In this document: positions 2,432-5,543 of the stretch, piece after piece
How the letters are laid out: every line of letters begins with the position of its first letter
How positions within the stretch are numbered: position 1 is the first letter of the stretch
Assembly (NCBI GenBank): GCA_026005175.1
Contig: BPKO01000001.1
Location: 806,001-870,000 of the forward strand
DNA from: Candidatus Tectimicrobiota bacterium
Lineage (GTDB): Bacteria > Tectomicrobia > Entotheonellia > Entotheonellales > Entotheonellaceae
Reading direction: 5' to 3'
DNA length: 64,000 nt
Position numbers and translations under genes: made by a program
Notes under the pieces: model-generated
What the model saw: the letters and a program-made list of their open reading frames with translations, nothing else
Database searches by the model: none
Told to the model about the DNA's origin: nothing

Positions 2432-3448
2432 CTACAGTTGCCGGCCAACGGCGCGGGCGACCGGTGCCAGCTCGCGCATCATGGCGCAAAACGTTGCCGG
2501 CTTCAGCGACTGCGGCCCATCACAGAGAGCCTGCGCTGGGTGGGGATGGACTTCCACCAGCAGGCCGTCGGCCCCTGCCGCAATGGCCGCCTTGGCCATG
2601 GGGGTCACGTACTGCCAGTGGCCGGTGGCGTGGCTCGGGTCGACGATCACCGGCAAGTGGGTCTCGGCGTGCAAGACCGGCACGGCACTGAGATCAAGGG
2701 TGTTGCGCGTGGCTTTTTCAAAGGTGCGAATGCCGCGCTCGCACAGGATGACGCGCGGATTTCCGGCCGAGAGGATGTACTCGGCCGACAACAACAGCTC
2801 TTCGATCGTCGTGCTCATGCCACGCTTGAGCAACACCGGCACGTCGAGCCGCCCGACGCGCTTGAGAAGGCTGAAATTCTGTACGTTGCGGGCCCCGATC
2901 TGGATGATATCCGCGTAAGCGGCGACCAGTTCGGCGTCTTCGGGATTCATGCACTCGGTGACGATGGGCAGCCCAAGTTCTTTGCCCACTTGCTGTAAAA
3001 TGCGCAGGCCCACTTCTTCGAGGCCCTGGAAGCTGTAGGGAGAGGTGCGCGGCTTGAACGCGCCACCGCGCAGAATGCGGGCGCCGGCTGCCTTGACGGC
3101 GACGGCGGTTTCGTACACCTGTTCGTAGCTCTCTACGGTGCAGGGGCCTGCCATCACCACGACTTCTGGGCCGCCGATGGCCACCCCTTGCACGGTGATC
3201 ACCGTGCGCTCGCGGTGCTCGAGCCGACTGGCCAGCTTGTAGGGTTTGAGGATGGGCACCACTTTTTCCACCCCCGGCAACCCCTCAAGGGCCTGCAAGG
3301 CGGCTTTGCCCCGCTCATCTCCCACGGCGGCAATGACGGTCCGTTCGACGCCCACGATGGGGTGGGGTTTGTAGCCCAGACGCGCGATTTCGCGCATCAC
3401 CGCCTCGCACTTCTCGGCTTCCGCCCCTGCTTTCATGACCACAATCAT
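2432..3448 (-). CDS. aroF: 3-deoxy-7-phosphoheptulonate synthase (DAHP synthase, AroF type)
   Basis: First enzyme of the shikimate pathway; condenses phosphoenolpyruvate with erythrose 4-phosphate. 338 residues, typical of the short class I-beta enzymes. Residues 1 to about 75 form a ferredoxin/ACT-like regulatory domain (MIVVMKAGAEAEKCEAVM), which in this subclass mediates feedback by aromatic amino acids. The TIM-barrel domain carries AGPCTVES, LRGGAFKPRTSPYSFQG, ARNVQNFSLL, LLKRGM, CERGIRTFE and DPSHATG. AAGGAGG lies 8 bases before the ATG. Upstream are an intrinsic terminator and an aromatic leader peptide, so this gene appears to be controlled by attenuation as well as by allostery. Confidence 0.96.
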   Translation of the reverse strand: MIVVMKAGAEAEKCEAVMREIARLGYKPHPIVGVERTVIAAVGDERGKAALQALEGLPGVEKVVPILKPYKLASRLEHRERTVITVQGVAIGGPEVVVMAGPCTVESYEQVYETAVAVKAAGARILRGGAFKPRTSPYSFQGLEEVGLRILQQVGKELGLPIVTECMNPEDAELVAAYADIIQIGARNVQNFSLLKRVGRLDVPVLLKRGMSTTIEELLLSAEYILSAGNPRVILCERGIRTFEKATRNTLDLSAVPVLHAETHLPVIVDPSHATGHWQYVTPMAKAAIAAGADGLLVEVHPHPAQALCDGPQSLKPATFCAMMRELAPVARAVGRQL

Positions 3449-3473
3449 CGCCTTGCCTCCTTAAATAAAAAAA

Positions 3474-3503
3474 GGCCCTGGGTCGCGGTAGCGACCCAGG
3501 GCC
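3474..3503 (-). terminator. Attenuator terminator in the aroF leader
   Basis: Perfect 13-bp stem (GGCCCTGGGTCGC paired with GCGACCCAGGGCC) with a 4-base loop. On the minus strand it is followed directly by seven T residues (3473-3467) and then by the aroF ribosome site. It sits between the aroF promoter and aroF, so it can only act as a conditional (attenuator) terminator. Confidence 0.9.
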
Positions 3504-3527
3504 CGAACGAGGGAGAAACCGGGAGGC

Positions 3528-3629
3528 TCACCTCACCAGGCAGAGGGCCGCTGCCAGGGCATAATAAAAGTAGGAGCGGCGCCAGCGCGCCTCCTCTCCT
3601 TTGCCTGGCAAGCCAACTGTGCGACCCAT
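3528..3629 (-). CDS. Aromatic-rich leader peptide of aroF
   Basis: A 33-codon open frame, ATG to TGA, inside the 5' leader of aroF. It has a plausible ribosome site (GGAAGG, 9 bases before the ATG). The second half reads RWRRSYFYYALAAALCL, giving one Trp codon and then Tyr-Phe-Tyr-Tyr in succession (3572-3561). These are the end products of the pathway that aroF starts. The stop codon lies 24 bases before the terminator hairpin. Ribosome stalling at the aromatic codons when charged tRNA is scarce would favour transcription into aroF, as in the trp and phe leaders. I know of no named family for this peptide, and function is inferred from position and codon content. Confidence 0.78.
   Translation of the reverse strand: MGRTVGLPGKGEEARWRRSYFYYALAAALCLVR
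3572..3595 (-). promoter_or_regulatory. Candidate pause hairpin in the aroF leader
   Basis: On the minus strand AGGAGGCGC and GCGCCGCTCCT can form a 9-bp stem with a 2-base bulge and a GCTG loop. It covers the Trp-Arg-Arg-Ser codons of the leader peptide and ends exactly where the Tyr-Phe-Tyr-Tyr codons begin. This is where a pause hairpin would lie in a classical attenuator. Thermodynamics were not computed. Confidence 0.5.
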
Positions 3630-3672
3630 GCCGGTGAGCCTTCCGTTAGCCTATAAAGCCTTAGGTGCTCTC

Positions 3673-3701
3673 TATATAGCACACCTGTCGGAGAGTGTCA
3701 A
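3673..3701 (-). promoter_or_regulatory. Consensus sigma-70 promoter of aroF
   Basis: TTGACA (3701-3696), a 17-base spacer, then TATATA (3678-3673) on the minus strand, essentially consensus. Transcription should start near 3666, giving a leader of about 218 bases before the aroF ATG. It begins 6 bases downstream of the preceding gene's stop codon. Confidence 0.85.
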
Positions 3702-3706
3702 GCGCT

Positions 3707-5185
3707 TCACCGCCCCTCTGCGAGGAGGCTGCGCGCCAAGGTGAGGGCGTCCCAGGCAGTCCCCGTGAGGTCTTGGCTCAGGGTTTCGGCGCTCTCTGCC
3801 AGCGCCTTGCCCCAAAACTCCCGCAGCAGCGCGCCGCTGTCGGGATTGCGATACCAGTCGTCGCCGCACTGCTGGCGTAGAGCGGTCTCCAGGGCACGCG
3901 CCAGGATACGGGCGCGAAGGGCGGTGAGCGTCGTGTAAGCCCAGTCCCAGTCCAGGACGTAGTACGCTCCGGCATACGCCACGCGGCACGCCTCCATCAA
4001 CAAGTCCCGGTAAATGTCGGCGGCCTCCTGTAGCGTGTCCTGGGTAGCCAGATGGTGCGCAAACAGCAAGCGAGCGATTTCGCGCCGCAGGCGATAGAGG
4101 GTGTCGAGCTGTCGCCAGGCCTCATAGCTGCCGTCGACACGGACGCCCAGGTACGCTCGCAGCCACCCGGGGTGGGCGACGGTATTGGCAAGCCACACGG
4201 CGCTGCCCTCTACCACGGCGGCATCGCCCAACACGCGCAGCAGTTCCGGCACCTCTTCTGAAGTATAAGCCCAGAGCAAAGCCCGACCGCACGCCGCGGC
4301 CGCCCGCTCGGCGCCCTTTACGCCCCCGGCCTGGCCACAGACAAGCACGACTTCCTGAGGCACGGCCGGCGCGGCAGCCAGTGCGGGACCAGGCTGTTCG
4401 CGCTGGAACTGCCAGTGCAGACGTCCGGCCGCGGCGGGGTCAATCCCCATCGCCCGTAGGCTGGCTTGCAGCGCCGGCAGCACGCTGCCTGGCTGATAAT
4501 AATGGTGGTATTCGGCAAAGGAAAAGAGGGCCAGCACGTCATGCCGCCTGAGCTGGCCAAGGGGCACGCCCAGCCGCCGCCTCACCGCCCAGGCCAGCAA
4601 GTCGAGGTAGACGTCCTCGGTGTCTTTGAGGGTCTGGGACAGCACGTCGGGCAGCGCCGCGGGATCGACGGGCAAAATGGCCGCCCACAGCGCCGCCGGG
4701 GTAGCAAAGCCGTGCTGGCGGGCATAGCCTTGGAGGGCGGCAAACGCCTCGGCAACGGGCGCCGCCAAGGTGTCGAGACGTTCTACCAGAGCCGCTTCAA
4801 TCGCGGCGCGCCGCTCGCGGCGTGACTCGCCCGCCATAGCGGCAAAAGCGGCAGGCAGCGACAGCGGCTCCTCATCGACCTCGCAGTACAGCGCGCGCTG
4901 CTGCTCCCGCAGGGCCTCCTGGTGGGGAAGCAATGCCGCACGCAGGCCGGTTTCCAAGACCCAGGCCCGCAGGCAGCGCAACTCGCGCTGCCGCTCAGAG
5001 GAGGCGGTGTGCATGGCCTCCTCTAGCACGGCCAGGGTCTGCGGCGAACAGACCCCCGCATAATGCCGAAGCACTTCCGCGCTGCGGCTCTCCCCCGCCG
5101 CCAGGTCAAGGGCAGCACGGGCGAAGTCACGCTGCGCGGCAAGGCAGGCAGCACGCAACGCGGCCAGGGGGTCGGTAGCCGCCAT
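3707..5185 (-). CDS. Metallopeptidase-like protein lacking HExxH (M3-like fold)
   Basis: 492 residues, mostly helical, with no signal peptide. The C-terminal half looks like gluzincin oligopeptidases of the M3/M32 type. A GG-containing strand (VLVCGQAGGVKGAE, near 280) is followed by a helix, then the short motif VVEGSAVWL (near 325), which would hold the third zinc ligand, and a helical tail with YRLRREIARLLF and DDWYRNPDSGALLREFWG. Where active enzymes have HExGHA, this protein has AACGRAL, so both zinc histidines and the catalytic glutamate are missing. Catalysis as a zinc peptidase is therefore unlikely. It lies 18 bases after a sulfur-carrier gene, presumably in one transcript. Family assignment is by eye and tentative. 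Confidence 0.6.
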   Translation of the reverse strand: MAATDPLAALRAACLAAQRDFARAALDLAAGESRSAEVLRHYAGVCSPQTLAVLEEAMHTASSERQRELRCLRAWVLETGLRAALLPHQEALREQQRALYCEVDEEPLSLPAAFAAMAGESRRERRAAIEAALVERLDTLAAPVAEAFAALQGYARQHGFATPAALWAAILPVDPAALPDVLSQTLKDTEDVYLDLLAWAVRRRLGVPLGQLRRHDVLALFSFAEYHHYYQPGSVLPALQASLRAMGIDPAAAGRLHWQFQREQPGPALAAAPAVPQEVVLVCGQAGGVKGAERAAAACGRALLWAYTSEEVPELLRVLGDAAVVEGSAVWLANTVAHPGWLRAYLGVRVDGSYEAWRQLDTLYRLRREIARLLFAHHLATQDTLQEAADIYRDLLMEACRVAYAGAYYVLDWDWAYTTLTALRARILARALETALRQQCGDDWYRNPDSGALLREFWGKALAESAETLSQDLTGTAWDALTLARSLLAEGR

Positions 5186-5203: not shown

Positions 5204-5494
5204 CTACGCCAAGGGCGAGCCGCCACCGGCAATAGCCGGGATGATGGCGAGTTCGTCGCCGTCTTTGAGGGGGGTCTGTTCGCCATTGAGAAAGCGGATA
5301 TCTTCGTCGTTGAGGTAGAGGTTGATGAACTTGCGAATCCCCCCGCGCTCGTCGCACAGCCGTTCGCGAATGCCGGGGAAGTGGCGCTCGAGATCGGCAA
5401 TGACTTCCTCAACGGTGCGTCCCTCAGCGTGGACCTCGCTTTGATTCTTGGTGAACTTTTGCAAGGGCGTGGGAATTCGCACCAACACCGCCAT
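5204..5494 (-). CDS. ThiS/MoaD-family sulfur carrier protein (CysO-like)
   Basis: 96 residues with a ubiquitin-like beta-grasp fold, most like CysO of actinobacteria and MoaD relatives: MAVLVRIPTPLQKFT at the start, FINLYLNDEDIRFL in the middle and IIPAIAGG near the end. Such proteins carry sulfur as a C-terminal thiocarboxylate on Gly-Gly. Here the Gly-Gly is followed by GSPLA, so a trimming step would be needed before adenylation, as reported for QbsE with its JAMM protease. The ATG at 5494 has AAGGAGGAG in front. No MoeB/ThiF-type activator, JAMM protease or cysteine synthase is nearby, so the pathway (cysteine, cofactor or other) is unknown. Confidence 0.85.
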   Translation of the reverse strand: MAVLVRIPTPLQKFTKNQSEVHAEGRTVEEVIADLERHFPGIRERLCDERGGIRKFINLYLNDEDIRFLNGEQTPLKDGDELAIIPAIAGGGSPLA

Positions 5495-5543
5495 CGTTGT
5501 GCTCCTCCTTATGCAAGACACAGAACAAGGCATAGTGTGGTTC

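Follow-up and report, generated by a model that had tools for sequence, protein, structure and literature searches.

The window (the whole 64-kb stretch of DNA analysed here) carries on its minus strand an aroF gene encoding a type Ib DAHP synthase with an N-terminal ferredoxin-like (FXD) regulatory domain. DAHP synthase is the entry enzyme of aromatic amino-acid synthesis. The gene product matches PF00793 and PF18152 in Pfam, as well as NF006421/TIGR01361, and its closest solved chain is 1rzm. The neighbouring gene 5' of the aroF leader (3707-5185) lies on the same strand, with its 3' end at 3707; its 492-aa product has no match in Pfam or NCBIfam, and it sits 3' of a MoaD/ThiS-like reading frame (near 5204-5500, by eye). 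On the other side, a further TTGACA..TATATA promoter-like pair was noticed at 2412-2375 (minus strand), between aroF and a TPR (PilW-like) gene at 2373-1549. The features leading into aroF are the following, in the direction of transcription:

3673-3701, minus strand: promoter, read directly (TTGACA at 3701-3696, a 17-nt spacer and TATATA at 3678-3673)
3639-3644, minus strand: ribosome-binding site GGAAGG of the leader ORF, 9 nt 5' of its ATG, read directly
3528-3629, minus strand: leader peptide ORF of 33 codons plus stop, peptide MGRTVGLPGKGEEARWRRSYFYYALAAALCLVR
3621-3627, minus strand: segment 1, GGGUCGC, at the start of the leader ORF; 7/7 pairs with segment 2 in the ribosome-free fold
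3572-3599 (approximate), minus strand: GC-rich hairpin belonging to the 1:2 structure, with its end at the first Tyr codon (3572-3570)
3584-3561, minus strand: regulatory codons Trp16, Tyr20, Phe21, Tyr22 and Tyr23 in the run W-R-R-S-Y-F-Y-Y
3545-3552, minus strand: segment 2, AGCGGCCC, the antiterminator strand within the leader ORF, 3' of the aromatic codons
3541-3501, minus strand: inner antiterminator helices GCCUGG(3541-3536):UCGGGC(3506-3501), GAGG(3534-3531):CCUC(3512-3509) and GAGCC(3529-3525):GGUUU(3520-3516)
3490-3497, minus strand: segment 3, GGGUCGCU (as DNA GGGTCGCT), partner of segment 2
3467-3503, minus strand: intrinsic terminator (3:4), a perfect 13-bp stem at 3503-3474 with a UACC loop, followed by U7 at 3473-3467
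3456-3462, minus strand: ribosome-binding site AAGGAGG of aroF, whose ATG is at 3448
2432-3448, minus strand: aroF

The first-pass annotation of this region had read the promoter, the 33-codon ORF with its ribosome-binding site, the hairpin reaching the Tyr codons, the 13-bp terminator with its seven T and the aroF ribosome-binding site correctly, letter by letter. The promoter agrees with the consensus at 6/6 positions in the -35 box and at 4/6 in the -10 box; a stricter promoter scan omits the pair because the final base of the -10 box is an A. The terminator was also recovered by a program scan. A search of both strands of the 64 kb for a short ORF with at least five aromatic residues in eight and a strong terminator downstream returned this arrangement only, and no other terminator passed the threshold for strength used there. 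When the intergenic stretch was dinucleotide-shuffled 3000 times, the ORF feature arose in 0.5% of cases and the terminator in 0.4%, while the two together never did, and the minimum free energy (MFE) of the leader RNA has a z-score of -4.4. Three hallmarks of an attenuator are found side by side—an ORF led by a ribosome-binding site and predicted to be translated, a cluster of end-product codons (W, Y, F, Y, Y within codons 16-23) and a terminator before the gene. Elsewhere in the same genome, one trpE locus (L149, at C1:442427) was checked upstream for an aromatic leader and none was seen. The TrpE of this locus (about 1080-1560) does not fit its N-terminal family before position 54, and its initial part may lie in another frame.

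Folding supplied the fourth hallmark, namely, an exclusive antiterminator that becomes available if the ribosome stalls at the regulatory codons and is blocked if it reaches the stop. In the MFE structure of the whole leader, GGGUCGC (3627-3621) pairs with GCGGCCC (3551-3545) and the terminator is intact alongside; in this ribosome-free state, the 1:2 helix forms and the 2:3 helix has a probability of 0.08. The same GGGUCGC 7-mer of segment 1 occurs again within segment 3. Stalled states were modelled by folding only the RNA 3' of the ribosome, with its edge placed 12 nt beyond the first base of the A-site codon. With a stall anywhere from Trp16 to Tyr23, and before the 3' arm of the terminator has been made, the predicted structure is an antiterminator of about -35 kcal/mol, in which AGCGGCCC (3552-3545) pairs with GGGUCGCU (3497-3490) on top of the three inner helices. 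When followed codon by codon, the probability of the 2:3 helix stayed at 0.99 as the A site moved through codons 16-22, fell to 0.87 at Tyr23 and to 0.46 at codon 24, and was 0 at every position between codon 25 and the stop; setting the edge at 9 or 15 nt instead moved the drop by one codon. The aromatic cluster therefore ends at the last stall position that still frees the antiterminator. Hence, a competing fold that excludes the 3474-3503 hairpin does exist, and its switch point coincides with the end of the cluster. The GGCCC/GGGCC complement first picked out by eye as the antiterminator was right in part: GGCCC (3549-3545) lies within segment 2, but the main pairing is the longer AGCGGCCC:GGGTCGCT match in a four-helix structure.

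How unusual these folds are depends on the measure chosen. The energy of the antiterminator region lies below that of 99.35% of shuffles (P = 0.0065), whereas the number of blocked terminator nucleotides is unexceptional (P = 0.216), the 8-bp 2:3 match arises in 22.8% of shuffles of this GC-rich RNA and the joint 1:2 and 2:3 match in 10.2%. In the window, the helix matches and blocked bases would not convince by themselves, and the energy alone stands out. As a control, the E. coli trpL leader (NC_000913) was subjected to the same scan, and its terminator arm was blocked with a value of 0.62 at both Trp codons and of 0 at the stop—the known behaviour of the trp attenuator. Once the terminator of the window has been fully transcribed, the terminator fold (-49.0 kcal/mol) is favoured over the antiterminator fold (-39.9 kcal/mol) by about 9 kcal/mol. 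The antiterminator would therefore have to form first, under kinetic control, as in other attenuators.

Building on this anatomy, on the mutually exclusive folds, on the position of the switch and on the conservation of the design described below, we consider it very probable that aroF is controlled by a ribosome-mediated transcription attenuator of the trp/phe type. Transcription would start near 3666, with translation of the leader coupled to it and with pausing of the RNA polymerase, for which the GC hairpin at 3599-3572 is a possible pause hairpin. With ample charged aromatic tRNAs, the ribosome would pass Tyr23 and reach the stop, covering both segment 2 (3552-3545) and the strands of the inner antiterminator helices; the 13-bp terminator would then form and transcription would cease at about 3467. 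Were charged Tyr-tRNA (three codons), Phe-tRNA or Trp-tRNA (one codon each) to become scarce, the ribosome would stall within 3584-3561 and leave segment 2 free, such that the antiterminator would form ahead of the 3' arm of the terminator and the RNA polymerase would continue into aroF. If the leader were not translated at all, segment 1 would take up segment 2 and the terminator would form. In the model, stalls at Trp16, Tyr20, Phe21, Tyr22 or Tyr23 each free the antiterminator, from which we infer that several aromatic tRNAs may be sensed together in the cell.

The first-pass annotation had made its case depend on counterparts in related genomes. Among five genomes of the window's phylum, three of the same family lack this aroF; the nearest relative carrying the gene, G004 (same class), has an aromatic leader (MEHLRERREGYFCYYYFFGFWYYFSYGT) followed by a terminator (GGCCATGGGTC..GACCCATGGCC), the arm of which is blocked at 0.88 through codon 27 and at 0.29 beyond. 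Leaders of the same design also precede aroF orthologues in at least five further lineages from several other phyla, including G035 (AWRYFYCFYFTPVCPGAV), the deltaproteobacterium RBG_13_52_11 (L035; SWRLYFYYWTRVCPLL), G036 (AYFFNGYRFFWGYFWF) and many genomes from the phyla of G089 and G141. The phylum of G089 is most likely Rokubacteria because one member, G215, and the named record L034 have identical AroF proteins. Over 72 related leaders, blocking of the arm of the first downstream hairpin averages 0.77 with the ribosome at the last aromatic codon, falling to 0.11 at the stop. Of 69 related leader ORFs, 65 have a TTGAC no more than 120 nt upstream. These results, together with the competing antiterminator, support the attenuator interpretation.

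We also noted other arrangements upstream of aroF. In Desulfobacterota (L048, L059, L065, L067 and L083), leaders with the Trp-rich runs RYWWWR, RFWYWWC and WYWWR precede genes from a separate AroF clade, and are probably Trp-specific attenuators. In L030 (G023), a short leader (MRTLGRYFGFYYPAGGALRSA) and a 10-bp GGGCGCCCCC hairpin lie before aroF. Tandem aroF-aroF copies occur in the phylum of G089 (G228:C321, G234:C124, G236:C221, G208:C124, G204:C368 and G207:C203); several of the first copies have an aromatic leader, and none was seen before those second copies that were inspected.

A further conserved feature emerged from 50 leaders found in the phyla of G089 and G141, in G035 and in L035. 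In these sequences, Val-Cys/Arg-Pro (V[CR]P) codons of the form GTYYGCCC (or GTCCGTCC) come after the aromatic run, and in 46 of the 50 leaders they have an 8/8 downstream complement, against 3.7 expected from shuffles. Among the 25 distinct cases—those with the pairing site at the junction of the 5' arm and loop of the downstream hairpin—99% of the cells in the antiterminator helix pair, compared with 33-51% when the alignment is slid by 1-3 columns. In the hairpin stem itself, eight of nine pairs have both-sided changes, while covariation in the antiterminator helix is thin: few pairs vary, 38 of 500 shuffles reach the same level and the sole strongly variable pair is U-A in 11 cases, U-G in 10, C-G in 4 and C-A in none. 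Third codon positions are held as well (GTC in 49/50 leaders and TGC or CGC in 44/50); the conservation of V[CR]P therefore points to the RNA rather than to the peptide. The window leader was tried as a member of this group and rejected, since the motif is absent, A-L-C-L codons stand in its place and the neighbouring segment AGCGGCCC serves instead. Nonetheless, comparison of the window peptide with leaders of this group gave a best local score of 46 against 29 ± 4 for shuffled peptides (0/500), although shuffling breaks up the aromatic cluster and convergence is possible. In the AroF tree, one clade (SH-aLRT 94) holds the window together with all V[CR]P leaders, and the leader label is clustered beyond shuffles; either common descent or transfer of the gene plus its leader might account for this pattern.

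Which amino acids the attenuator senses is a question within the same mechanism. A variant in which only tyrosine (or tyrosine plus phenylalanine) is sensed, the Trp codon being incidental, comes close to an even call without quite reaching it. Three Tyr codons against one Phe and one Trp in the window fit such a variant, as do the totals of 185 F, 85 Y and 38 W in the 50 V[CR]P leaders and the AroR leader of C. glutamicum (Phe-Tyr-Phe), which, as summarised in PMC11802643, responds to Phe only (Neshat et al. 2014). Yet in the model Trp16 is as effective a stall site as Tyr for freeing the antiterminator, and both L004 and L035 likewise have a Trp early in the cluster. Far less probable is an arrest of the ribosome by the leader peptide itself—a TnaC-like nascent-chain sensing of free Tyr or Phe, for which V[CR]P would be the arrest sequence in the relatives. 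About 50 relatives do have a conserved F-x-x-V-[CR]-P beyond their aromatic run, which would agree with this explanation, but the window has no such motif, Cys and Arg interchange freely while third codon positions are kept (as expected of an RNA element), and V[CR]P is placed 3' of the aromatic run, roughly where the switch is lost. It is equally improbable that the terminator merely ends the upstream gene, the small ORF being a chance frame and aroF having another promoter: that gene does end at 3707 on the same strand, but a promoter and an ORF led by a ribosome-binding site lie between it and the terminator, ORF and terminator never arose jointly in the shuffles, the same arrangement stands before aroF orthologues of several phyla and the promoter scan found no promoter-like site between the terminator and the aroF ATG.

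Returning to ribosome-mediated attenuation, the phylum of G089 displays what could be an elaboration of it. In L119, L123, L129, L146 and about 30 more loci, the leader is followed by two hairpins, namely, hairpin A (GCCGCGGGC..GCCCGCGGC), with 0-3 T after it, and hairpin B (GGCCGCGGG..CCCGCGGCC), with 6-8 T. Between the 3' arm of A and the 5' arm of B there is a complementary stretch of 7-10 bp. This complementarity suggests a relay attenuator, in which the V[CR]P codons would open hairpin A (without a U run) and the 3' arm thus freed would block hairpin B, the real terminator. The arms of A and B have a CCGCGG core in common, and duplication of a terminator is therefore an alternative to the relay. 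We tentatively propose that type Ib aroF is accompanied by an old attenuator family, as yet undescribed, in several uncultured phyla—that of the window, the Rokubacteria-like one of G089, that of G141, the lineages of G035 and G036, and a deltaproteobacterium—and that this family operates as a three-step relay in the Rokubacteria-like branch, a joint proposal that we place slightly below the midpoint between doubt and acceptance.

The relation of the window leader to known systems was examined through databases and the literature. At gathering score, Rfam (Trp_leader, Phe_leader, T-box and all other families) gave no match to the window leader, and at E<=5 it returned nothing but sub-threshold matches to unrelated families driven by the GC hairpin, e.g., NsiR1 with 30.4 bits against a cutoff of 39, which were rejected. 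Six leader peptides had no match in NCBIfam. The E. coli trpL leader and the window leader are alike in having a leader ORF, regulatory codons, exclusive 1:2, 2:3 and 3:4 helices, an intrinsic terminator and the same calculated switch; the window differs in its aroF target, mixed Trp/Tyr/Phe codons, longer leader, four-helix antiterminator and lack of an Rfam Trp_leader match. The Phe_leader (pheL) of gammaproteobacteria also has an aromatic codon run before a terminator, as in the window, but its target is pheA, and the window leader has no Rfam match to it.

Attenuation before aroF itself has precedents. In the aroR-aroF system of C. glutamicum, control is by ribosome-mediated attenuation, and the AroR leader answers to Phe and not to Tyr according to the summary of Neshat et al. 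(2014) in PMC11802643. By this description, on which the comparison is made, the system shares with the window a DAHP synthase gene, leader-ribosome attenuation and aromatic codons, and differs in belonging to Actinobacteria and in its Phe response. Similarly, uORFC-13-1 of Acholeplasma and environmental sequences is a uORF with Phe codon(s) and a terminator upstream of aroF, for which attenuation has been proposed (PMC8632094); it resembles the window in this layout and, by its published description, is set apart by a U-run coding for at least one Phe and by its occurrence in Acholeplasma and environmental sequences. Attenuation of E. coli aroF by a translated leader has also been proposed (Camakaris 1980, as cited in PMC8632094). 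The initial impression that no described family matches thus holds for Rfam, but ribosome-mediated attenuation of aroF is already described as a kind. What goes beyond it is the breadth over uncultured phyla, the conserved codon/RNA element and, possibly, the two-hairpin relay of the Rokubacteria-like branch. Our literature search, covering mostly non-subscription papers, found no report of aromatic leaders or of the conserved pairing in these phyla, an earlier description being possible.

Taken as a proposal, the attenuator provides a concrete form of control over entry into aromatic amino-acid synthesis in lineages that have seen hardly any experiments, and suggests that ribosome-mediated attenuation of aroF would reach far past Proteobacteria, Actinobacteria and Firmicutes. 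Placing a mixed Tyr/Phe/Trp leader at an enzyme of the common pathway would be a simple way of integrating three charging states. The codon/RNA element of the related leaders, together with the possible two-hairpin relay, could become an Rfam family.
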